Position numbers and translations under genes: made by a program
Assembly: GCA_017557525.1 (NCBI GenBank)
Contig: JAFYYN010000070.1
Location: 48,982-112,981, forward strand
Length of the DNA stretch: 64,000 bases
Direction of reading: 5' to 3'
DNA from: Lachnospiraceae bacterium
Lineage (GTDB): Bacteria > Bacillota > Clostridia > Lachnospirales > Lachnospiraceae
Part shown: one piece after another, positions 52,762 through 64,000 of the stretch
How positions within the stretch are numbered: the stretch's first letter is position 1
Layout: each line of letters begins with the position of its first letter
Notes under the pieces: model-generated
Database searches by the model: none
Told to the model about the DNA's origin: nothing
The model's input: only the letters and a program-made list of their open reading frames with translations

Positions 52762-52832
52762 TGAGATGCATAACAACTTATTGACAACCGCGATATCTGG
52801 TTTTGTTCAAAAGAAATAAGGAGGAAAATATT

Positions 52833-53267
52833 ATGGCAAGTATCTTTGATGTTGCAAAATATATTCTAAATAAATGTGGTAAAATGAGCACGTGGAAACT
52901 TCAAAAGTTATGTTTCTATTCTCAGGCATGGTCACTTGCGTGGACTGAAGAGCCGCTTTTTCAGGAAGATTTTGAAGCATGGGCTAATGGACCGGTTTGC
53001 CCTGAACTGTTTCAGTTACACAAGGGTTTATTTACATGTTCAGAAGCAGACATAGCCAAAGGGAGCGCTGACAATCTTACAGATGATCAAAAGGATACAG
53101 TTAATATCGTACTTCAAGATTATGGACAGATGGAACCGTATGAATTAAGAGAATTGACACATAAGGAAGATCCCTGGATACTTGCTAGAAAAGGGCTTGC
53201 AGAAGGTGCCTATTGTAATAATATTATATCGAAGGAAAGCATGGGAGCATATTATGGGAGCTTGTAA
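52833..53267 (+). CDS. Panacea-domain (DUF4065/SocA-like) antitoxin candidate
   Basis: A 144-residue protein. IFDVAKYILNKCGKMSTWKLQKLCFYSQAW, FEAWANGPVCPEL and the final helix are the hallmark of the DUF4065/Panacea domain. That domain acts as antitoxin for many unrelated toxins. The gene directly after it is a small basic protein of matching spacing, so a toxin-antitoxin pair is likely. AAGGAGG precedes the ATG at 52833, which is why the in-frame TTG at 52803 is rejected. It is the first intact gene of the accessory island. The neighbouring DarG-like protein has a C-terminus of the same general type. Confidence 0.88.
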   Translation: MASIFDVAKYILNKCGKMSTWKLQKLCFYSQAWSLAWTEEPLFQEDFEAWANGPVCPELFQLHKGLFTCSEADIAKGSADNLTDDQKDTVNIVLQDYGQMEPYELRELTHKEDPWILARKGLAEGAYCNNIISKESMGAYYGSL

Positions 53268-53272
53268 TTGCA

Positions 53273-53731
53273 ATGGCAAAAAGAGATAAACAAATAAAAA
53301 AGCAAGCTGGGATTGCCTTAAAAGCAACAGTTCGTAATCAGTTCAGTTCAAATGGCGAAAAAGTTGTTTGGATGTTTGATGAGATAGATAAAGACGGAGA
53401 TTTTGCTTTTGATATCAGAAGGGGAGATTTTCAACACCAAGAGTTTTTAGACAAAATGATTTCTTATTCAAGTATGACGTGGAATGAAATCTCTTCTCAG
53501 ACACATGATAAAGGGAAAAGTAAACATCATCTTTTGGAGTACGACTCATTGTCAAAAAAAGCGAAAGACAGAATTGCGGCACTACAATTAGAGCAGGATA
53601 CAGATAGGATTTTTCCTTTTGCCTTACAAAACAAATTAAGGGTTATTGGACTACGAGAAAATGAAAAATTTCATGTAAAGTGGTATGATCCGGAACATGA
53701 ATTTTGTCCTTCACAGAAGAAGCATACATGA
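53273..53731 (+). CDS. Putative toxin partner of the Panacea antitoxin
   Basis: A 152-residue protein with a basic N-terminus (MAKRDKQIKKQ). Mid-protein WNEISSQTHDKGKSKHH is followed by KLRVIGLRENEKFHVKWYDPEHEFCPSQKKH. The ending pattern (RVIG, xFHV, WYDPEHxFxP) recalls small proteins found next to Panacea genes, but I cannot name a characterised toxin. It starts 6 nt after the antitoxin gene and has no good ribosome site of its own beyond GGGAG, consistent with coupling. The toxic activity is inferred from pairing only. Confidence 0.7.
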   Translation: MAKRDKQIKKQAGIALKATVRNQFSSNGEKVVWMFDEIDKDGDFAFDIRRGDFQHQEFLDKMISYSSMTWNEISSQTHDKGKSKHHLLEYDSLSKKAKDRIAALQLEQDTDRIFPFALQNKLRVIGLRENEKFHVKWYDPEHEFCPSQKKHT

Positions 53732-53851
53732 GGGAAAATGGCTGAAAGCCTTATGGGACAAGGGTTTGCAGGATTTGATAAATCACATTTTTAGTCTTGG
53801 TGTTGAAAATAAATCGGGATTTCTCCATAAAGTCAAAAATCACCGATATCC

Positions 53852-53882
53852 TTGGCATTGACCACAATTGTGAGCATGTAAG
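53852..53882 (+). repeat. 31-bp repeat with CACAATTGTG palindrome, copy X1
   Basis: 29 of 31 bases match copy X2 at 60589-60619. It lies 37 nt upstream of the DUF4314-like gene. The 120 bases before it carry a decayed-looking open stretch without a start. Confidence 0.7.
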
Positions 53883-53918
53883 GCCGATTTTGTGATAATT
53901 ATGAGGAGTATAGAGAAA

Positions 53919-54518
53919 ATGGAAAAACGAACAAATGTTCAGGGGGGGGGGGTACTAGACGACCCAAAATTATATAAATACCTACTCCCCGGAATGCGCA
54001 TAGTACTGGATGAAATGGTATCCGACCCCAGCCCCTTAGAGAAAGGAACACAGGGAACCATAACCGGCAGAGACGACATCGGCGACTGCCATATGGAGTG
54101 GGACAACGGGAGCGAATTGAAGCTCTTGGAAAATGACAGATACCATATAGTAACGACTCAGGAAGAACTTGAGAAATCCTTCGAGCACCTTAGAAAAAAG
54201 CAGGAAAAAGACTACAACATTTGCCCAAGATGCGGAAAAACATTCGATGTACGAAGAGGAGCCGTATCAAGGCGAATAAATAAACTGAATATAATGATCT
54301 GCGACCTCTGCGGGCAGCAGGAAGCCATAGAAGATTTCATATTGAATAGCAAGAAGTATGATACAGATGTAAATATCTTTGTTCCTGCAGGAAACAATCA
54401 GACCGGCTATAAAACAAAAGAAAAATCGGAACAGAATGGCAAACAGAAAATAGATGTCAAGATAAAACCCATCTCAGACTGGCATATAGTCAAGGTATGG
54501 AGAGGGGTGGAGACATGA
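53919..54518 (+). CDS. DUF4314-like protein with zinc ribbon and poly-G tract
   Basis: A 199-residue protein. Residues about 22-80 resemble DUF4314 (LPGMRIVLDEMVSDPSPLEK, GTQGTITGRDDIGDCHMEWDNGSELKLL), a small SH3-like beta domain. Residues about 105-145 form a zinc ribbon, CPRCGKTFDVRR then MICDLCGQQEAIEDF. Eleven G residues at 53942-53952 lie only about eight codons from the start, so slippage would turn expression on or off. The start is uncertain: ATG 53919 has GAGGAG eleven bases upstream, ATG 53901 and GTG-type options also exist, and an internal ATG at 53994 would bypass the tract. The stop overlaps the next gene's ATG. Confidence 0.7.
   Translation: MEKRTNVQGGGVLDDPKLYKYLLPGMRIVLDEMVSDPSPLEKGTQGTITGRDDIGDCHMEWDNGSELKLLENDRYHIVTTQEELEKSFEHLRKKQEKDYNICPRCGKTFDVRRGAVSRRINKLNIMICDLCGQQEAIEDFILNSKKYDTDVNIFVPAGNNQTGYKTKEKSEQNGKQKIDVKIKPISDWHIVKVWRGVET
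53942..53952 (+). repeat. Homopolymer of 11 G inside a coding region
   Basis: A run of eleven G in an otherwise A/T-rich gene start. Changes in its length would shift the DUF4314-like frame. Confidence 0.85.
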
Positions 54519-55105
54519 ATAAACACAAAGGCTTACTTAGCACATTAGGTGGTTTCTCACTTCTGGTTCTCTTGATGGTCGGAATAACCGCAGCGTTATT
54601 AACGGACGTAGAAGAAAATGAGTACCTGTTTGAAATAGAGGGCGAGACAGTAGACATAGATCTTGAAGTAACGGGACTGTCGGGAGAATCCACAGCAGTT
54701 GTATCAGGGCAGACATTTGAAATAAAACCTATCATAACCAATTTGGGAACAGCAAATGTATATACATTCCTGGAGATTGATGTTCCAATGGTTGGGGAAA
54801 CACCGGTATTCACATATACAGCTGATGAATCCGCTTGGGAATTAATAAGCACTACAACAGAGGACGAGTACCAGAAATCAATATATAGTTATGGAAGCCT
54901 GACAGTACTTGACTCCGGCTTGGATACAACAGACCATCCGCTTATAGAAACAGGCACATTTGGGAATATCAGAAGCGAGACTGATTTGCAGCTCCCGTTG
55001 ATTGTCAAAGCATACGCAGCAACCGATGCAGGATTTGCAGGAAGTCCTGACGAACTAGAGCCCGTCGATGTATGGACAACGACACTTAGCGCTGTGGAAG
55101 GCTAA
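54515..55105 (+). CDS. SipW-dependent exported protein, TasA-like
   Basis: A 196-residue protein with a SipW-type signal region. A Lys-rich start (MNKHKG), a hydrophobic helix and then AALLTDVEENEYLFEIEGET, the T-D-x-E plus (V)DIDL pattern typical of TasA/CalY-like proteins. The mature part is acidic and beta-rich with no cysteine. The neighbouring signal peptidase is the likely processing enzyme. The start overlaps the stop of the DUF4314-like gene (ATGA), so the three genes are probably co-translated. Fibre or matrix formation is suggested by the family but not shown by sequence. Confidence 0.85.
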   Translation: MNKHKGLLSTLGGFSLLVLLMVGITAALLTDVEENEYLFEIEGETVDIDLEVTGLSGESTAVVSGQTFEIKPIITNLGTANVYTFLEIDVPMVGETPVFTYTADESAWELISTTTEDEYQKSIYSYGSLTVLDSGLDTTDHPLIETGTFGNIRSETDLQLPLIVKAYAATDAGFAGSPDELEPVDVWTTTLSAVEG

Positions 55106-55111
55106 GTAAAA

Positions 55112-55771
55112 ATGAGCCTTCGGAATTATATAGCTGCAACAGTAGGCTCGTCACCTCTATATAAGCAAGCCTGCAGCATGATACGGTACCTGAAAGAAAC
55201 CTTAAAAAACCTGTACACGGTGTTGATGTATGTATTGATCATATTAGCAATAATAGCCATAATAGGGCTAATGATGGGGATCCGTCCAAGGATACTTGTA
55301 ACAGATTCTATGAATCCCTCGGTTTATAAAGGAAGCCTTGTTCTACTGAATATAGATACACCTTGGGAAGAAATAGAAGAGGGTAACATAATAGCCTTCA
55401 GGTGCGGTGCCACAGAAGTAATGCACAGGGTAAAATCAATAACAAATGACGGCATGATCCTGAAACCTGATAACGGCGAAGGCGAAAACTTCGTAACCAA
55501 GGACATGTATGTAGGCAAAGAAATAATAGCATTTCCATATATAGGTGGAATGCTAAAACCAATCCTGCAGGAAGGGAAATCTAAAATACTTCTTGCAGCC
55601 GTCATACTGATAATAATAGGCAGCCACCAGCGCAAAAAAGAAAAACGCCGGCGCAAGCGCCAAAAACTGGGTAAACTCGAAAGAATGCTGACGTTTGATT
55701 TAAAGGATGAAAAAATTAGATATATGAGAGGAAGAAGGGAAAAGCTTGCATTCCTAAAGAGAATTATTTGA
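55112..55771 (+). CDS. Signal peptidase I, ER/SipW type
   Basis: A 219-residue membrane protease. One transmembrane helix (about 32-55) precedes the catalytic Ser in ILVTDSMNPSVYKGS. The second catalytic residue is His in EVMHRVKSITNDG, in place of the Lys of ordinary bacterial enzymes. A second hydrophobic segment, ILLAAVILIIIGS, follows, then a strongly basic tail. It lies 6 nt after the TasA-like gene, its probable substrate. A duplicated 3' end lies 2.4 kb upstream (52630-52761). The basic tail is unusually long for the group. Confidence 0.9.
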   Translation: MSLRNYIAATVGSSPLYKQACSMIRYLKETLKNLYTVLMYVLIILAIIAIIGLMMGIRPRILVTDSMNPSVYKGSLVLLNIDTPWEEIEEGNIIAFRCGATEVMHRVKSITNDGMILKPDNGEGENFVTKDMYVGKEIIAFPYIGGMLKPILQEGKSKILLAAVILIIIGSHQRKKEKRRRKRQKLGKLERMLTFDLKDEKIRYMRGRREKLAFLKRII

Positions 55772-56583: not shown

Positions 56584-57348
56584 GTGGTAAGAGAAGCGTT
56601 TACTGAAGCAATAACAGATACAAATGCATCTCATACAATAAAGGTAAGAAGCAAAAACAGTAATGCTTTGCCGAATTCTTTAAGAGATATTATGAGATGC
56701 GGGATATGCGGCAGGAAGTTGGGATATGATCCTGTTAATGAGGAGAAGCGGATAAAGAAAGCCGTATACTTCTGTCAGTATCATACAGGGCAGAAGGCAA
56801 AGGGAGGAATCGTTCTATCACAAAGACCTTCTATCGAAGAAGAGACTTTGAAGCAGATGATCATAGAGGAGTGCAATAAGTGCCTTGAACGTATCAAGGT
56901 TGGTAAGCCGGCAGGTGTAGTAGAAGCCGGTGAGTATATAACCACACAGGAACTGGAGGAACACCTTAAGAAGCTTGAGGACAGGTTTTCTGAATATGAT
57001 AAAGAGATTTCTCCATACTATGAAAATTATGCTAATGACAGGGTTACAACGGACCAGTTAAAAGCGGCAACATCGAAGCTTGATAAGAAATACGATATCT
57101 ATAATGTCCTGAAGGAAATCAAAAAGACAAAACTTCAGATAACTAACCTGACGCTGGCGGAGACGATGCGAAAGGAAGTAGGCATGCGCAGAAGGCCGAT
57201 GACAGAATTTGATGAGCGTCAGGTTCTTCGGATGTCAGACTGCATTAAGCTTAATGCTGACGGGACAATCTCGATAAACTTTACGGAAGAGGTTGCCATA
57301 GCAGCCCTGATACATCAGGCGTTTACCGGGGAGTTTCCAGAGGAATAG
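56584..57348 (+). pseudogene. C-terminal fragment of a large serine recombinase
   Basis: 254 residues remain of a family normally near 500. The visible part starts within the recombinase domain (HTIKVRSKNSNALPNSLRDIMRCG), has the zinc-ribbon-like CGICGRKL...VYFCQYHTGQ, and a long coiled coil (about 120-210). It ends with VLRMSDCIKLNADGTISINF, as full-length enzymes do. The N-terminal resolvase catalytic domain with the active Ser is absent, so it cannot recombine DNA alone. The frame opens at a GTG with GGTGG nearby. It marks the island as derived from an integrative element. Confidence 0.8.
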
Positions 57349-57402: not shown

Positions 57403-57588
57403 ATGACAGCTACACAGTATTCTAAGCCGAATATGACAAATCTTCCTCGTGAACTGGGAGAGCAGATTTTTGCTGAAATTCAAAACTCCACTAAACCTGA
57501 TAGAAAGAAGATGCATGAAATTTCAATGCAGCTTGAAGAAGAAATGATGCTAGAAAGGGAAAGGGAGAAAAGAAATGCAACAGACTAA
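57403..57588 (+). CDS. Small antitoxin-like protein
   Basis: A 61-residue protein. TNLPRELGEQIFAEIQNSTK precedes a helix rich in Glu/Lys/Arg (MHEISMQLEEEMMLEREREK). AGAAAGGAGA sits before the ATG. It overlaps the downstream acetyltransferase-like gene by 14 nt, a layout typical of toxin-antitoxin pairs. The DNA-binding fold is not obvious. The assignment is by size, charge and arrangement. Confidence 0.65.
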   Translation: MTATQYSKPNMTNLPRELGEQIFAEIQNSTKPDRKKMHEISMQLEEEMMLEREREKRNATD

Positions 57589-58204
57589 AGTCGTTCTTCA
57601 ATCTAGACGATTCTATATTTCTCATCTGAACCCTTATAGTGAGGTTGATATATTCTCTATTAAAAATTTCTCTGTAGACCGTCCTGAGGGATATGGCCTT
57701 GAGATGTACCTTAAAGAGTATGCCTGTGAAGATGAGAAAAACCATGAAATGCGGACATATCTTGTAAGGGATATTGACACGGATGAGTTGGTTGGATATT
57801 TCTCCTTGAAAGCAGGGCTGATTTCTCTTGATGAAAAGGAAGAAGAAACGGGAGATGTTAATCCTAAGACAGGGGATAAGGTTATTGTGACCAAATTCAA
57901 TACCCTGCCCGGAGTTGAGCTTGCCAATTTTGCAGTTAACAGCGCATACATCGCCAAGCATCCTAAACAAAAAGGAAATGGGCATGTCATTTTTACAGAG
58001 TTTATCATGCCTATGATAGATAAGGTGGCCGAATATGCCGGTGTGAAAATGATCTATATTTTTGCACTTCCATATGATGATCTTATCGACAGGTATAAAA
58101 GATATGGTTTCCTTCGTCTTTCTCCGGCGGCAGAGGAAAAGCTGCACACGAGATTGAAACCGCGTTATGATATGAGCTGCAAGTTTATGTATCAGCTGAT
58201 ATAA
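57575..58204 (+). CDS. GNAT-type acetyltransferase, possible toxin
   Basis: A 209-residue protein. YLVRDIDTDELVGYFSLKAGL forms the first GNAT strands. VELANFAVNSAYIAKHPKQK leads to a GNGHVIFTEFIMPMI stretch in the place of the acetyl-CoA loop, followed by VKMIYIFALPYDDLIDRYKRYGFLRL, the late strand-helix-strand with the usual YxxxGF. The N-terminal half is variable. With the small upstream gene it resembles TacT/AtaT-like tRNA-acetylating toxin modules, but the antitoxin is not of the usual RHH type. A tiny-frame repeat array starts 26 nt after its stop. Confidence 0.75.
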   Translation: MQQTKVVLQSRRFYISHLNPYSEVDIFSIKNFSVDRPEGYGLEMYLKEYACEDEKNHEMRTYLVRDIDTDELVGYFSLKAGLISLDEKEEETGDVNPKTGDKVIVTKFNTLPGVELANFAVNSAYIAKHPKQKGNGHVIFTEFIMPMIDKVAEYAGVKMIYIFALPYDDLIDRYKRYGFLRLSPAAEEKLHTRLKPRYDMSCKFMYQLI

Positions 58205-58430
58205 GGGTTATAGTTTCGCTTGAGGCTGCATGAAGAAAGTCGAAAATATCCTTAAGAATGTTAAAGAACTGCTTAGAAAAGTATGAAGAAAGTCTAATTT
58301 ATCGCTGAAAAATGGTTTCCGAGTAAAGTTTTCTAAGGCTCCACATGAAGAAAGTCAGAAATATCCTAAGGCGAGCCAATATATCGCTAAGAAAAGTATG
58401 AAGAAAACGAGATTTATTCTGAGGTAATAT
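58205..58430 (+). repeat. Degenerate tandem repeat with tiny open frames (array 1)
   Basis: Four units start ATG AAG AAA at 58230, 58283, 58345 and 58398. They read MKKVENILKNVKELLRKV, MKKV (early stop), MKKVRNILRRANISLRKV and MKKTRFILR. The first and third stops overlap the following ATG as ATGA. TTGAGG or TAAGG often lies five to seven bases before the ATG. The block follows the GNAT gene. Reading these as genes is not established; they may be a DNA repeat. Confidence 0.65.
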
Positions 58431-58582
58431 TGAGATTACGATAAAAATGTGGTAAAATTTATAAGATTTGCTCAGCTAACGATAACCCGTAACGATTTCT
58501 CCCTCGAGGTCACTTATAGATCACAAATGCCGTAAAATGGGCTTTTTTACTGCGAAATAAATCACATTTTTACTTTTGACAT

Positions 58583-58884
58583 AAAAAATAAATCTGGAAA
58601 GTTTCATGCGATTTTTAGAAATTAAGGGAAAATAGGCAAAAATAAATTATGAAAGTTTCATAGTTATAAGTTTTAAGACGTTTTTATGAAGGAAACCGGA
58701 TTTTATATAAGTTTGAGCATCACTGGCATGAAGAAAACGGGAAAAAAGTGAAAAATGCCACTAAAGTTTTACCCCCTATTTCATGAAGGAAATCAAATTT
58801 ATACCCCTAAAAATATAAGTTTGAGTATATAAATCATGAAGAAAATGGACTTTATTCAATACATCACAAAAAAACGTATGTTTG
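58583..58884 (+). repeat. About 302-bp repeat, copy 1, before darT
   Basis: Nearly collinear with 61286-61587, and its first bases reappear at 63945-64000. It contains AAATTATGAAAGTTTCATAG, ATGAAGGAAATCAAATTTAT and ATAAGTTTGAGTATATAAA. Short frames start at 58688, 58785 (MKEIKFIPLKI, identical in copy 2) and 58838 (begins MKKMDFIQYITKKR). The preceding 150 bases (58430-58583) are similar but more diverged. Confidence 0.8.
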
Positions 58885-58944: not shown

Positions 58945-59538
58945 ATGGGCTTAGAGAACACAAGAAATAAAAAATTGCTATATCATCTTACAGAATTGGA
59001 TAATATGGCGTCTATCATAGATAATGGTTTACTTTCGAGAGCCACGGTAAAGGGAAAAGGGCTACAATATAACGATGTTGCTGATCCGGAGATAATCGAC
59101 CGGCGTGAGAAGCTTGGTCTTGATGGCTATATTCCCTTTCATTTTCATCCATATTCAGCATTTGATGTGGCTGTTAAGAAAAGCAGACCGGATGACAAAT
59201 TCGTTTATATAACGATAAAGAGAGAACTGGCTGCTTTGGCAGGTTTTAAGGTTTTGGTCAAGCATCCCTTGTCACAGGAAGAATGCGAACTCTTTGACTA
59301 TGAAGAAGGAATTTCAAAAATTGACTGGGATACCTTGGAAAAAGTTGGTACAGATGATACATATTCAAAGAATGTGAAGATGGCGGAGTGCCTGAGCGAT
59401 AGACCGATACCGGCAGCACTCATACAATGTGTTTACGTGCCGGACGAATGGACAAAAGAGTATGTGGAGCAGCTCTTTTGGGATAAAGGGATCACAGAAC
59501 AGCCGCCATATGTCAGCGTGATGGAAACCTTCTTTTAA
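58945..59538 (+). CDS. darT: DarT-like ADP-ribosyltransferase toxin (DUF4433)
   Basis: A 197-residue enzyme of the DarT family, which ADP-ribosylates single-stranded DNA. The N-terminus LYHLTELDNMASIIDNGLLS is the family's NAD-binding start. GYIPFHFHPYSAFDVAVKK is the central motif, and KMAECLSDRPIPAALIQCVYV carries the catalytic Glu. GTAGAAGGAAACGCT lies before the ATG. The antitoxin DarG is 36 nt downstream. Homologues are known phage-defence toxin-antitoxin systems. Which DarT subtype this is (preference for T or G) cannot be decided by eye. Confidence 0.9.
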   Translation: MGLENTRNKKLLYHLTELDNMASIIDNGLLSRATVKGKGLQYNDVADPEIIDRREKLGLDGYIPFHFHPYSAFDVAVKKSRPDDKFVYITIKRELAALAGFKVLVKHPLSQEECELFDYEEGISKIDWDTLEKVGTDDTYSKNVKMAECLSDRPIPAALIQCVYVPDEWTKEYVEQLFWDKGITEQPPYVSVMETFF

Positions 59539-59574: not shown

Positions 59575-60585
59575 ATGATTACATATAAACAGGGCAATCT
59601 ATTTGATTCCGATGCGGATTGTATTTTTAACACAGTAAACTGTGAAGGATATATGGGCAAAGGAATCGCATACCAGTTTAAGCAGCGCTTTCCTGAGAAC
59701 AACATCCAATACGAGAAAGAGTGCAGAGCGGGAAAGTTAAGACCCGGTACATTGCTGATTTATAGAGAAAAGGGAAAGACGATTGTCAACTTCCCAACAA
59801 AAGATAAATGGCGCAACCCATCATTGATGAAATACATTACAGAAGGTCTTGATGAATTTGCCCGGATCCTTCCGGAGTTAGGCATTAAGAAAGCGGCTAT
59901 TCCTCCGCTTGGATGTGGGAATGGCGGTCTTGCATGGAATGATGTAAAGAAGGAAATAGAGAACAGGCTTAAAGCTTGTAATATTGAGATAGAGTTGTTT
60001 GGACCGGCAGAGGTTAATACCGGAAAACAAACACAGGGTCAGATGACAGTATACGATCTCATCCTGTTAAAGGTAAGGGAAGAACTTAAACGTCCTACAT
60101 CCTTAAGATTCCAGAAGACGTTTTATTTTGCGAATTATTTTTATGGAAGTAAGATGTTTGCTTTTTCGAGAGGGCGGTATGGTCCATATTCTAAAGATCT
60201 GTACAGCGAAGCAGAAAGGATCGGAAGATACCAAAAAGATTACAATCTGAAGGGCACAAAGGAAACTTATGATGCCATTTATCGGTTAATCTGCTCGAAG
60301 CGGGTTGACGCACAATACAAGAAAATGTCTGATAGTATTGACAAAGCATTAGATATAGTTAATGCTACGGAAGACGATCTTCTTTTGGAAGGCGCAGCCA
60401 CAGCGTTCTACCTTATTAAGGATGAAAAGGTTACCGAAGCAAAAGAGATTACAAAGGCATTTAAGGAGTGGTCTGAAGATAAGGCTGCAAGGTTTGACGA
60501 GGAAACAATTCTCCACAGCCTAGATAAGCTGGAAGGATTGGGGATAGTTCAAAGGACACTTTTTGATACTTATGAAGTGATGTGA
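59575..60585 (+). CDS. darG: DarG-like macrodomain antitoxin
   Basis: A 336-residue antitoxin that removes ADP-ribose from DNA and binds the toxin. The macrodomain (about 1-150) has ITYKQGNLFDSDADCIFNTVN, GYMGKGIAYQFKQRFP, NFPTKDKWRNPS and AAIPPLGCGNGGLAWNDVK. The second half begins MTVYDLILLKVREELKRPTS and has RFQKTFYFANYFYG and RGRYGPYSKDL, resembling the DUF4065-like module seen in DarG proteins. AGGAAAGGAGG precedes the ATG. Order toxin then antitoxin is as in characterised loci. The 31-bp repeat X2 starts 4 nt after its stop. Confidence 0.92.
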   Translation: MITYKQGNLFDSDADCIFNTVNCEGYMGKGIAYQFKQRFPENNIQYEKECRAGKLRPGTLLIYREKGKTIVNFPTKDKWRNPSLMKYITEGLDEFARILPELGIKKAAIPPLGCGNGGLAWNDVKKEIENRLKACNIEIELFGPAEVNTGKQTQGQMTVYDLILLKVREELKRPTSLRFQKTFYFANYFYGSKMFAFSRGRYGPYSKDLYSEAERIGRYQKDYNLKGTKETYDAIYRLICSKRVDAQYKKMSDSIDKALDIVNATEDDLLLEGAATAFYLIKDEKVTEAKEITKAFKEWSEDKAARFDEETILHSLDKLEGLGIVQRTLFDTYEVM

Positions 60586-60680: not shown

Positions 60681-61079
60681 ATGGCAACATTAGGTGAAAG
60701 AATACGTCAGCTGCGGGATGAAAAAAACCTCAAGCAGACCGACTTGGCGAAGGCACTTGGAGTCGATTCAAATACTGTCTCTAAGTGGGAGCTCGGAACA
60801 CAGAATCCGAGTCCTGAAAACACAGCTATGCTGGCCGAAATGTTTGATGTCCCACTTGCTTATCTGGGCGGCAGCTCAGATGACAGGAGCTTTCCGGAAG
60901 TAAGCGATGAACTGGGGGCGGCTACCGCAGAAGAAGATGAACAGGAATACCTGAAACATATGGTGAAGCTGTTCAGAGACCTGAGTCCGGAAGGACAGAA
61001 GTTCATCAAGATTACGTTGAGTGCAGTCTGGGAGAACGAGAAGTTTGAGAGGGAAATACGAGGTCAGCAGAACGATTGA
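60681..61079 (+). CDS. XRE-family transcriptional regulator
   Basis: A 132-residue repressor-like protein. The N-terminal helix-turn-helix (about 5-62) reads GERIRQLRDEKNLKQTDLAK, then ALGVDSNTVSKWELGTQNPS. The C-terminal part is acidic with a final amphipathic helix. ACAAGGAGC lies before the ATG. The 31-bp palindrome repeat 61 nt upstream is a candidate operator, because its second copy also lies upstream of a gene in the island. It might control darTG or itself. A diverged repeat region follows. Confidence 0.88.
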   Translation: MATLGERIRQLRDEKNLKQTDLAKALGVDSNTVSKWELGTQNPSPENTAMLAEMFDVPLAYLGGSSDDRSFPEVSDELGAATAEEDEQEYLKHMVKLFRDLSPEGQKFIKITLSAVWENEKFEREIRGQQND

Positions 61080-61285
61080 TTCTCTGCTGCGGAAAGTACC
61101 CAGAGAATGAAAGTGTTCATATTGCACCGAATATAGGTAGATTTTGAAGAAAATAGGTGTAAAATGGTGAGGTTGGGGATTTTTAATTCTCTGTTGGATT
61201 TGTAAGCAGAGACTAATAATGCGTAACTCCTGGTCACGCGGGCACCTTTATGAAGTCCCGAAAGCCTGTAAAATCAAGGGTTTTG
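61080..61285. other. Diverged repeat-associated stretch after the XRE gene
   Basis: Short pieces resemble array units (for example TTGAAGAAAATAGG at about 61144) and the GCGTAACTCC...GGTCAC block seen before the other copies. There is no gene. Confidence 0.5.
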
Positions 61286-61587
61286 AGAAAAATAAATCTG
61301 GAAAGTTTCATGCGAAATTCAGAAATTAAGGAAAAATAGCCAAAAATAAATTATGAAAGTTTCATAGTTATAAGTTTTGAGCTGTTTTTATGAAGGAAGT
61401 CAAATTTTATATAAGTTTGAGTACTATTGGCATGAAGAAAACAGAATTTATCGAGAAAATGCCACTAAATTTTTACCCCTAATTTCATGAAGGAAATCAA
61501 ATTTATACCCCTAAAAATATAAGTTTGAGTATATAAACCATGAAGGTTTTCAGATGTATTCAATACATCACAAAAAAACGTAGATTT
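61286..61587 (+). repeat. About 302-bp repeat, copy 2, before the AAA ATPase gene
   Basis: Collinear with copy 1. Short frames include a 31-codon one formed by joining two units (61392 region), MKEIKFIPLKI, and a 44-codon one at 61540-61674 beginning MKVFRCIQYITKKRRFWGKR. The remaining 61588-61847 holds only decayed-looking coding stretches. Confidence 0.8.
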
Positions 61588-61847
61588 TGGGGAAAACGAG
61601 AGTTACTTGGTGACTTGGCAAGGGTGATAAGGGGCCTGATGAGTTCGATAAAGTGGAAGGCTTTATTGGACTAATTAGAGCTGATATCAACAGAGTGTGG
61701 TTAAAACGGATGAAATGCTTGGTAAGTAATCGTGGACTGTGGATGACCACAAGGCGGTTTAGAAGTTTAGCATATCATTGGAATAGATAGTGGATATCAT
61801 ACCAAGATTATTGATAGCCACAAATAATACGAAAGGAGAGACATGCG

Positions 61848-63449
61848 ATGAAAGAATTTAATACGACAGCAGTATGTATACCATCAAAGCATTATATGGT
61901 TGATCTCTCCGATAGAGTTGCTGAGATAAAGAAGCTGGTTGATGCGGGCAAGTACTTTACAATAAACAGAGCAAGACAGTATGGAAAGACGACAACATTA
62001 GATGCTTTGTGTACGTTGCTATACGATGAGTATATAGTATTGAGCTTGGACTTTCAGGATATCGGTGATGCGGTTTTCAAAACAGAAGGTTCATTCACAA
62101 AAGGAATGTGCAGGATTATTTGTGATGCAGTTGAATTCTTGGATACTCCGATTCCCGAGCAATATCGTATAGCTTTCGAGAGATTAAGTTCTGAATCTGA
62201 TGAATCTGCGAAAATGGACGATTTATTCAGGATTTTCATGAGATGGTTCAAAGAGTCAGAAAAAAAGGTCGTTCTTGTTATTGATGAAGTGGATAGCGCA
62301 ACGAATAATCAGGTGTTTCTTGATTTTCTGGCTCAACTTCGTTCTCTTTACTTGAAACGAGAAAAGAATACGAAGGTTAAAACATTCCAATCTGTGATCC
62401 TTGCCGGTGTAACGGATGTAAAGCATCTAAAGAGTAAAATACGTCCTAAGGATGAGCATAAGGTCAACAGCCCGTGGAACATTGCGGCTGACTTTGATAT
62501 CGATATGAGCCTGTCAGAAGAGGGCATAAAGGGAATGCTGAATGAATATGAAGCAGACCATCACACGGGTATGGATACGGACGAGATTGCAAAGTCAATC
62601 AGAGAATATACAAACGGTTATCCCTACCTGGTAAGCCGAATCTGCCAGAAAATAGATAAGGATTTTGTTCCGGATGTGTTTAACACATTGCATGATGCAT
62701 GGACATTGTACGGTGTAGATGAGGCTGTAAAGAAGATCCTTTCTGAGCCTAATAATTCATTGTTTGAATCTCTTACAGGAAAGCTTACAAACTATCCGGA
62801 ATTACGCAAAAGGCTTCGAGCGATTTTGATGCGTGGAGAAACTTTTGCCTGGCTTCCATATGATGAAGAGCAGCAGCAATTATATATGTATGGATTCATC
62901 AGGAATAACCACAACACGGTAGCTGTTTCAAATCGAATGTTTGAAATGCTCCTGTATACGCATTTCATTGGAGAAAGTGATAAAAACAACGATCTGAAAC
63001 AGATAGCAGCAGGAATGAAATCGACCTTTGTAGATGAAGAAGGTTGGCTTGATATTCCGAAGATAATGGATCACTTTATTAAGGAGCATAACAGGCTTCA
63101 TAAAGATAATACTGAGAAGTTCCTTGAAGAAGAAGGACGGGAGCGCTTTATCACCTATGTATCCGGAATTATAAACGGTACCGGAACCTACAGTGCAGAG
63201 GAGCAGCTGAGAGATTACAGAAGAACAGATCTTATCATTCACTATCTTGGCAGAAGATATGTTATTGAGTTGAAGATCTGGCATGGAGAGAGATACAACG
63301 CCGAAGGTGAAAAACAATTGATCGGGTATTTGGATTACTGGAATCTGAATACTGGTTATTTGCTGAGCTTCAACTTCAATAAGAAGAAAGAACCGGGAGT
63401 TGAGCGGATTCAGATAGGTGATAAAGTATTGTTTGAAGGAACAGTATGA
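61848..63449 (+). CDS. AAA-ATPase-like protein with PD-(D/E)XK nuclease-like C-terminus
   Basis: A 533-residue protein. The N-terminus has the family-specific CIPSKHYMVDLSDRVAEIKK and Walker A in FTINRARQYGKTTTLDAL. Walker B is KKVVLVIDEVDSATN near residue 140-150, then SVILAGVTDVKHLKSKIR. The C-terminus has RRTDLIIHYLGRRYVIELKIW, the D...ExK signature of PD-(D/E)XK nucleases. These AAA-ATPase-like proteins are widespread in gut Clostridia and Bacteroidetes; a defence or mobile-element role is suspected but not proven. GAAAGGAGAG precedes the ATG. It is flanked by repeat copies on both sides. Confidence 0.88.
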   Translation: MKEFNTTAVCIPSKHYMVDLSDRVAEIKKLVDAGKYFTINRARQYGKTTTLDALCTLLYDEYIVLSLDFQDIGDAVFKTEGSFTKGMCRIICDAVEFLDTPIPEQYRIAFERLSSESDESAKMDDLFRIFMRWFKESEKKVVLVIDEVDSATNNQVFLDFLAQLRSLYLKREKNTKVKTFQSVILAGVTDVKHLKSKIRPKDEHKVNSPWNIAADFDIDMSLSEEGIKGMLNEYEADHHTGMDTDEIAKSIREYTNGYPYLVSRICQKIDKDFVPDVFNTLHDAWTLYGVDEAVKKILSEPNNSLFESLTGKLTNYPELRKRLRAILMRGETFAWLPYDEEQQQLYMYGFIRNNHNTVAVSNRMFEMLLYTHFIGESDKNNDLKQIAAGMKSTFVDEEGWLDIPKIMDHFIKEHNRLHKDNTEKFLEEEGRERFITYVSGIINGTGTYSAEEQLRDYRRTDLIIHYLGRRYVIELKIWHGERYNAEGEKQLIGYLDYWNLNTGYLLSFNFNKKKEPGVERIQIGDKVLFEGTV

Positions 63450-63460
63450 TAGCTTTGGCA

Positions 63461-63800
63461 ATGACCATATATAAGTTTCGTCTTGAAAACTATGAAGAAA
63501 GCCGTAAATATTAAAGTTTCGTATTGGAAAGTATGAAGAAAGTTGGATTTATTCACGAGAAATAGTCCAAAATGTAAAGTTTCGCTTGAGGCTGCATGAA
63601 GAAAGTGGAAAATATCCTTGAAAAATATAGATTTTGCTAAGGATTGCATGAAGAAAGTCAGAAATATGATTGAAAGGTATAAGTTTCACTAAGCGCCACA
63701 TGAAGAAAGTCAGAAATAAAATGGCAAAGTCAATATCTCACTAAGAAAAGTATGAAGAAAACAGAATTTATGATGGCGATAAAAACCGAGGTAAAATGAC
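63461..63800 (+). repeat. Degenerate tandem repeat with tiny open frames (array 2)
   Basis: ATG AAG AAA units start at 63492, 63533, 63596, 63648, 63700 and 63752. They read MKKAVNIKVSYWKV, MKKVGFIHEK, MKKVENILEKYRFC, MKKVRNMIERYKFH, MKKVRNKMAKSISH and MKKTEFMMAIKTEVK. The last four starts are exactly 52 nt apart: 14 codons, a TAA and a 7-nt linker beginning right after the stop. Others overlap as ATGA. This array begins 12 nt after the ATPase stop. Confidence 0.7.
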
Positions 63801-64000
63801 AAAAAATGGGGCTGAAATGGGTGAAATTTGGTAATTTGCTAAAATTCAGCAAACGCGTTACGAAATTTCCCTCGAAACCAGTTATAGACACAAGAAATCC
63901 AGTGTTTTCAAGGGGTTCAGGGGTGTTGAACACAATTATATTTTCCGATTCTTTCATGCGAAATTCAGAAATTAAGGGACAATAGGCAAAAATAAATTAT
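63801..64000 (+). repeat. Repeat copy 3, cut by window end
   Basis: 63830-63940 resembles the block before copy 1 (CGTTACGAAATTTCCCTCGA against CGTAACGATTTCTCCCTCGA). From about 63945 TTTCATGCGAAATTCAGAAA continues as in copy 2 until the window ends. Confidence 0.7.

Follow-up and report, generated by a model that had tools for sequence, protein, structure and literature searches.

At the end of this Lachnospiraceae contig, we found a repeat array that is part of a real, unusual, non-coding composite spacer, most likely acting in cis between gene modules. The window that we analysed is the whole stretch of 64,000 nt, taken from a 3.93-Mb draft genome of 92.5% completeness; window position 64000 is also the last of the contig. 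Our best reading, which we hold with about even confidence, is that the array is non-coding and acts in cis, as a set of helically phased protein sites or as curved DNA. Accessory and defence islands collect unrelated modules, and the spacing, regulation and shuffling of these modules are poorly known. If our reading is true, a reusable, helically ordered, non-coding spacer between modules would offer a handle on these questions.

The array and its neighbours comprise the following features:

56584..57348, + strand: C-terminal part of a serine-recombinase-like protein, with a Zn ribbon (PF13408, 8.6e-6; phrog_95 integrase, 2.6e-11)
57575..58204, + strand: GNAT-like acetyltransferase ORF (phrog_1758, 5.7e-22)
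58208..58420, + strand: X1, four units immediately 3' of the GNAT-like ORF (unit model)
58421..58583, + strand: linker 1, from X1 to Y1 (alignment with linker 3)
58584..58884, + strand: Y1, four units and a palindromic leader, 5' of darT (alignment and unit model)
58945..59538, + strand: darT (PADLOC DarT, 5.8e-39; Pfam DarT, 2.1e-25)
59575..60585, + strand: darG (PADLOC DarG, 2.8e-89; NCBIfam NF048014, 258.2 bits, above the cut-off of 250)
60681..61079, + strand: XRE-type HTH regulator (PF01381, 1.8e-15)
61080..61287, + strand: linker 2, its X part lost or decayed (weak alignment)
61288..61588, + strand: Y2, four units and a Y1-type leader, 5' of the ATPase ORF (alignment and unit model)
61848..63449, + strand: AAA_35 / AAA-ATPase_like protein with a PDDEXK_3 domain (Pfam)
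63461..63790, + strand: X2, the array first reported, six units (starts, TRF, unit model and predicted bend)
63791..63948, + strand: linker 3, 3' of X2 (alignment with linker 1, core pattern)
63950..64000, + strand: third Y copy (Y3), its start only, interrupted by the contig end (by eye against Y1 and Y2)

The initial annotation had described six consecutive units at X2 that begin ATG AAG AAA, and both the coordinates and TRF agree with it: the six ATGAAGAAA starts lie at 63492, 63533, 63596, 63648, 63700 and 63752, the final four are spaced by exactly 52 nt, and TRF reports a period of 52 for this array (77-78% matches, scores of 142 and 128). The unit structure that it gave, of 14 codons, a TAA stop and a 7-nt linker, holds for the frames at 63596, 63648 and 63700, and an ATGA overlap is seen where the TGA of the 63492 frame overlaps the following ATG. 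The repeats are far above chance. A triple of ATGAAGNAA spaced by 37-65 nt occurs 9 times in the window, versus 0.00 expected (a count reached by 0 of 100 shuffles), which confirms that they are real.

The repeat is not confined to the site first reported. We identified 18 units, all on the + strand, in four clusters (X1, Y1, Y2 and X2) that lie in three intergenic gaps; besides X2, the unit recurs upstream at 58208-58420, 58584-58884 and 61288-61588, in the same orientation each time. Each unit is about 42 bp long, with the consensus AAGTTT-N13-ATGAAG[A/G]AA-N5-ATTTAT, and the boxes are imperfect. In 12 of the 18 units, the first box has its [A/G]TTT beginning exactly 17 bases 5' of the ATG; in 3 the distance is 16 or 18 bases, and in the other 3 the [A/G]TTT is missing at this position. 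Mean column identity among units is 64%. Across the window, ATGAAG[A/G]AA occurs 20 times on the + strand, 17 of them within the clusters, and never on the - strand. A model built from the 18 units recovered all 18 on the + strand at E ≤1e-5, a match by construction, and its only two other matches in the scan were on the - strand (E of 0.019 and 0.027).

The clusters are parts of a larger spacer, which has the order X, linker, Y. Along the contig, the order is GNAT-like gene, X1, linker 1, Y1, darT-darG-HTH, linker 2, Y2, AAA/PDDEXK gene, X2, linker 3, the start of Y3, and the contig end. The composite X-linker-Y is common to gap 1 and, as far as the contig end, to gap 3, while gap 2 holds a weak linker and Y. 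The intergenic gaps measure about 740 and 770 bp. Between Y1 and Y2 there are 42 differences over 301 positions and no indels, and the homology of the two copies ends abruptly at one common point, after AACGTA, at the module edge; near the start of both is a palindromic ATGAAAGTTTCAT. X1 is 76% identical to part of X2 across about 200 bp. The X and Y clusters are also related arrays (alignment score of 88 for X2 and Y2, versus 73 for the best of 1000 resampled sequences; p = 0.003 for X1 and Y1), and the end of Y aligns to the left half of an X unit. Similarly, linker 1 and linker 3 align with a local score of 59, versus 41 for the best of 1000 resampled sequences, and a core pattern from these two linkers, at up to 3 mismatches, is found in only those two places in the genome. 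Linker 2 matches linker 1 more weakly (p = 0.009), and its match to linker 3 is not significant (p = 0.077). (Resampled sequences, here and in the AA/TT, bend, box and attC checks, are first-order Markov draws and not exact shuffles.)

The contig stops about 50 nt inside Y3, whose final 20 bases equal Y1 by eye. Because the stop is inside a repeat copy, assembly may simply have halted at a repeat here, and further modules may lie beyond it. No Y copy turned up on the other contigs of the draft genome when these were searched with a query that contained Y2.

The spacing of the units follows the DNA helix. The 14 unit spacings take seven distinct values (41, 42, 52, 53, 55, 62 and 63), which group at 41-42, 52-55 and 62-63 bp, or about 4, 5 and 6 helical turns. 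Barring the 55-bp spacing, which is one of the seven distinct values and is 2.5 bp out of phase, the direct repeats lie at whole helical turns. At a period of 10.5 bp, the seven spacings gave R = 0.81 (Monte Carlo p = 0.0012 against random seven-value sets drawn from 38-66; p = 0.0002 for phase at zero), in a test that rests on only seven distinct spacings. In any case, a tandem repeat with a period of 52 to 52.5 bp tends to produce power at its harmonics, of which one is close to 10.5 bp. The 37-nt spacings of the ATGAAAGTT leaders (at 58649 and 61353) were excluded from this test and from the unit alignment, and the leaders were kept in the Shine-Dalgarno test below.

Base composition gives the same period: A/T tracts recur with the helix in all four clusters (p ≤0.008). 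The AA/TT power at 10.5 bp was above that of resampled sequences in X1 (p = 0.004), Y1 (p = 0.008), Y2 (p = 0.004) and X2 (0 of 500), and three control stretches (a gene stretch, linker 1, and the stretch from Y2 to the ATPase gene) had no such excess (0.64, 0.42 and 0.64). Among about 1150 background stretches from the same contig, just 3 to 8 had a signal of this strength. The top period is 10.5 bp in X1 and in X2, where 5.75 bp is almost equal; stronger than 10.5 bp are 9.95 bp in Y1 and 14.2 bp in Y2.

The X clusters are also predicted to be curved. In a calculation from wedge values, the predicted mean bend is 96 degrees per 105 bp for X1 and 102 for X2, and the window mean is 42. These values stand at the 97.9 and 98.7 percentiles of the window and were matched by 0 of 300 resampled sequences. 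The Y clusters are less clearly curved (predicted mean bend p = 0.10 for Y1 and 0.04 for Y2), the maximal predicted bend is marginal in the four clusters (p = 0.047, 0.050, 0.033 and 0.010), and the most bent position predicted in the window is 31461, outside the clusters.

Furthermore, the boxes have changed less than the rest of the unit. Across seven matched unit pairs (4 Y pairs and 3 of the 4 X pairs; positions that belong neither to the boxes nor to the variable parts, with changes at 1 of 12 and at 6 of 9, were not counted), 14 of 154 box positions differ, versus 31 of 126 in the variable parts (p = 0.0005). Because ATGAAG anchored the units, its conservation is inflated, and without it the comparison is 11 of 91 versus 31 of 126 (p = 0.024). 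Promoter-like matches in a scan were not enriched (17, versus 18.6 by chance).

In our preferred reading, the sites of about 42 bp stand in tandem, separated by about 0, 11-13 or 22 bp (gaps read by eye), which would place successive sites on nearly one face of the helix. A sequence-specific DNA-binding protein would coat the array cooperatively, with intrinsic curvature assisting. The resulting nucleoprotein would act in cis on the adjoining module, either controlling its expression or shielding it from the following module. The array belongs to the composite X-linker-Y spacer, which recurs between unrelated gene modules, one of them the phage-defence toxin-antitoxin pair DarTG. For the binder, we can name just a candidate, the XRE regulator at 60681. 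On the other side, the units are paralogues and so not independent, they come from one locus of one draft genome without an outside homologue, and the unusually good RNA fold of Y2 (see below) counts against this reading.

Plasmid iterons and partition sites are helically phased direct repeats too, and here the copies lie between accessory genes; a Pfam scan of 24 ORFs chosen between 35.7 and 63.4 kb gave no rep or par match, the array itself being at the contig's end. The repeats do not have the form of a CRISPR array, given the column identity of 64%, the variation within the unit and the spacing of 41-63, and the same 24 ORFs gave no cas match. The array may work most like the direct-repeat operator of a DarTG2 defence island: there, RptR, a small DNA-binding protein, binds three 9-bp repeats at one promoter (PMC12255303). 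Both are non-coding direct repeats beside DarTG, but our locus has four clusters with 18 units in all, each of about 42 bp, some clusters lie 3' of genes, and the binder is putative. Like intrinsically curved DNA with phased A-tracts (PMC3940949, PMC3372288), our clusters have AA/TT at the helical period and, in X1 and X2, predicted curvature; unlike it, they are a tandem repeat of specific boxes that is copied between unrelated genes. A limited literature search (titles and the starts of abstracts) returned no description of such a spacer.

Instead of a regulatory spacer, X-linker-Y could be a recombination platform, where modules are gained, lost or reordered by a dedicated recombinase or by homologous recombination between spacers. 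We consider this unlikely, but it has several points in its favour. Related spacers in one orientation border unrelated modules; the homology of Y1 and Y2 is cut off after AACGTA at the module edge; the Y end matches an X unit over its left half, which would fit a module lodged inside a split unit; and the C-terminus of a serine recombinase adjoins the first module. However, that C-terminus, which lies just 5' of the GNAT gene, covers only positions 364-562 of the 651 in the phrog_95 profile, and a three-frame reading from 55800 onward gave no open N-terminal or catalytic part; no intact recombinase was seen at 55.8-57.4 kb. Also, there are only two Y-to-module junctions, in one genome, and attC cores are absent. 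A narrower version, which we regard as improbable, is that X-linker-Y serves as the cis site for a cassette system of an undescribed, non-integron kind. A recombinase or nucleoprotein assembled on the helically phased units would then let accessory and defence modules stack in a single orientation within a split repeat unit.

Integrons themselves were rejected, and so were CALINs, on both the integrase and the attC sites. The attC core motifs are RYYYAAC and GTTRRRY. We found no pairs of these cores 36-140 nt apart on either strand of the three spacers, and the integron integrase model TIGR02249 had 13 matches in the organism's own genome (a 92.5% complete draft), of which the best scored 65.8 bits and none reached the cut-off of 265. 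CALINs are attC clusters without an integrase (PMC7923331). Integron arrays and CALINs share with our locus a series of unrelated modules in one orientation with related spacers between them; they differ in that our locus has no attC core pairs and no integrase above the cut-off, that one module comprises three genes, and that the gaps between modules are about 740 and 770 bp.

Another alternative, in our view quite unlikely, is a neutral satellite: units and spacer would have spread by local duplication, with the phasing a by-product of slippage. Slippage between phased tracts could produce indels of 10-11 bp, the units are strongly divergent, linker 2 is weak with its X part lost or decayed, and the array was seen at a single locus of a single genome. 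What speaks against a satellite is the helical phase in four of four clusters, boxes that are kept better than the variable parts, and the single orientation at intergenic positions only. If the array were only a satellite, it would still illustrate that open frames in A/T-rich repeats can mimic a peptide operon.

We searched widely for relatives of the array and, judging from sequence matches, saw no cluster besides these four among the examined genomes and viral stretches. (Scans with exact patterns would overlook strongly diverged arrays, and the organism's own genome may be missing from public collections.) In its own genome, BLAST found the array sequence on its own contig only, and a 20-mer pattern had 6 matches on this contig and 3 elsewhere at the 3-mismatch limit, the same number as a reversed control (3). 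Two of 61 related genomes matched, the own genome and one with a 27-bp match, with no further cluster. A bipartite pattern was present in 34 of 397 family genomes and formed a cluster in the own genome only; a collection of genome contigs gave 33 matches and no clusters, with at most 4 ATGAAG[A/G]AA on the matched strand per stretch. A sequence model, R1, had weak matches in 18 of 23 other genomes of the genus at E ≤0.1 (best 6.8e-4). We read three of these loci (L272, L273 and L274, the last without an ORF list): both matches in L272 are inside an 823-aa ORF, and L273 looks by eye to be the same gene.

Five scans of viral contigs gave 7, 1, at least 120, 20 and 0 matches, and there was no unit cluster in the scans with 7, 1 and 20. 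In the 80 stretches examined from the scan with at least 120 matches, 83 of 98 triples stay in a single frame, and by eye the remainder look like coding DNA or like a short tandem repeat that is unrelated (L130). The query matched plasmid and phage records in its ATPase, darT and darG portions, with no matches in the arrays. A repeat linked to the ATPase was rejected from its flanks in other genomes: up to 800 bp per side at 29 loci, from 60 matches outside the own genome, held no regular array, and 2 of the 29 had a single 9-mer three times at uneven spacing.

The spacer might also be transcribed and act as a structured RNA or as an RNA antitoxin, an explanation that we find doubtful. It draws on Y2, whose + strand fold beats 100 of 100 shuffles (z = -4.9), and on an 11-bp hairpin that joins adjacent boxes in Y1 and Y2. 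But the other clusters do not outfold their shuffles clearly (z = -0.5 for X2, or +1.5 on its minus strand; +2.4 for X1; -1.1 for Y1), so a structured RNA is not general to the clusters. Between Y1 and Y2, 0 of 57 predicted pairs are changed on both sides. Rfam gave a single match on 61000-64000, under the threshold (E of 0.97). With regard to a Type III RNA antitoxin, the first gene 3' of Y1 is darT and the first 3' of Y2 is the AAA/PDDEXK gene (the contig ends after X2 and Y3), and no ToxN-like match was found among the scanned neighbours (Pfam and PADLOC).

The initial annotation left the choice between an operon of mini-peptides and an RNA or DNA repeat that happens to be open; our results favour the repeat, at the level of DNA, over peptides. 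It is true that ATG AAG is present in 18 of 18 units with short open frames. However, the anti-Shine-Dalgarno energy of 20 starts has a median of -1.9 kcal/mol, versus -5.8 for 35 ATG starts of the window (hand-picked on the + strand among 76 listed ORFs; p = 4e-6), and as a set these starts are no better than 600 random ATGs (-2.6 kcal/mol, p = 0.07). Three of the 20 (58230, 63596 and 63648) reach a moderate -4.6 to -5.6 kcal/mol. The third-base changes that had been put forward as a coding sign are matched by equal change at the other positions: in nine matched frame pairs between clusters, codon positions 1, 2 and 3 were changed at 25, 31 and 32 of 105 sites each, so that changes are not concentrated at the third. 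Two of these nine pairs have frames of equal length and identical sequence, and 3 of the 9 have no difference across the compared stretch; the frame ends mostly differ, at 12-63 nt in one copy and 12-132 nt in its partner. Unit frames are very unequal in length, from 4 to 44 codons (the shortest is just MKKV), and the unit spacing lacks a 3-nt phase (R of 0.14 and 0.19). A translated mini-peptide operon is therefore very improbable and was rejected on the Shine-Dalgarno, codon-position and frame-phase tests.

Among the neighbouring genes, DarTG is the only firm defence system, because the AAA/PDDEXK protein has just one, weak PADLOC match (PDC-S54, 9.2e-5) and the GNAT-like ORF has none (nor any in Pfam or NCBIfam). 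The darT gene scores 66.4 bits against NCBIfam NF048013, under the cut-off of 150. We found two homologues of the GNAT-like gene. The AAA/PDDEXK gene has one copy in its own genome, and part of it has a 72.5% DNA match to a Butyrivibrio proteoclasticus plasmid. Its family is patchy, with matches at E ≤1e-60 in 40 of 397 family genomes, including the own genome, and 2-4 matches in some of them. Further upstream, at 52803-55768, are consecutive SocA/Panacea antitoxin-like, NsnC/MAG6450-like, DUF4314 and signal-peptidase-like ORFs, a row that appears to resemble the accessory genes of mobile elements.
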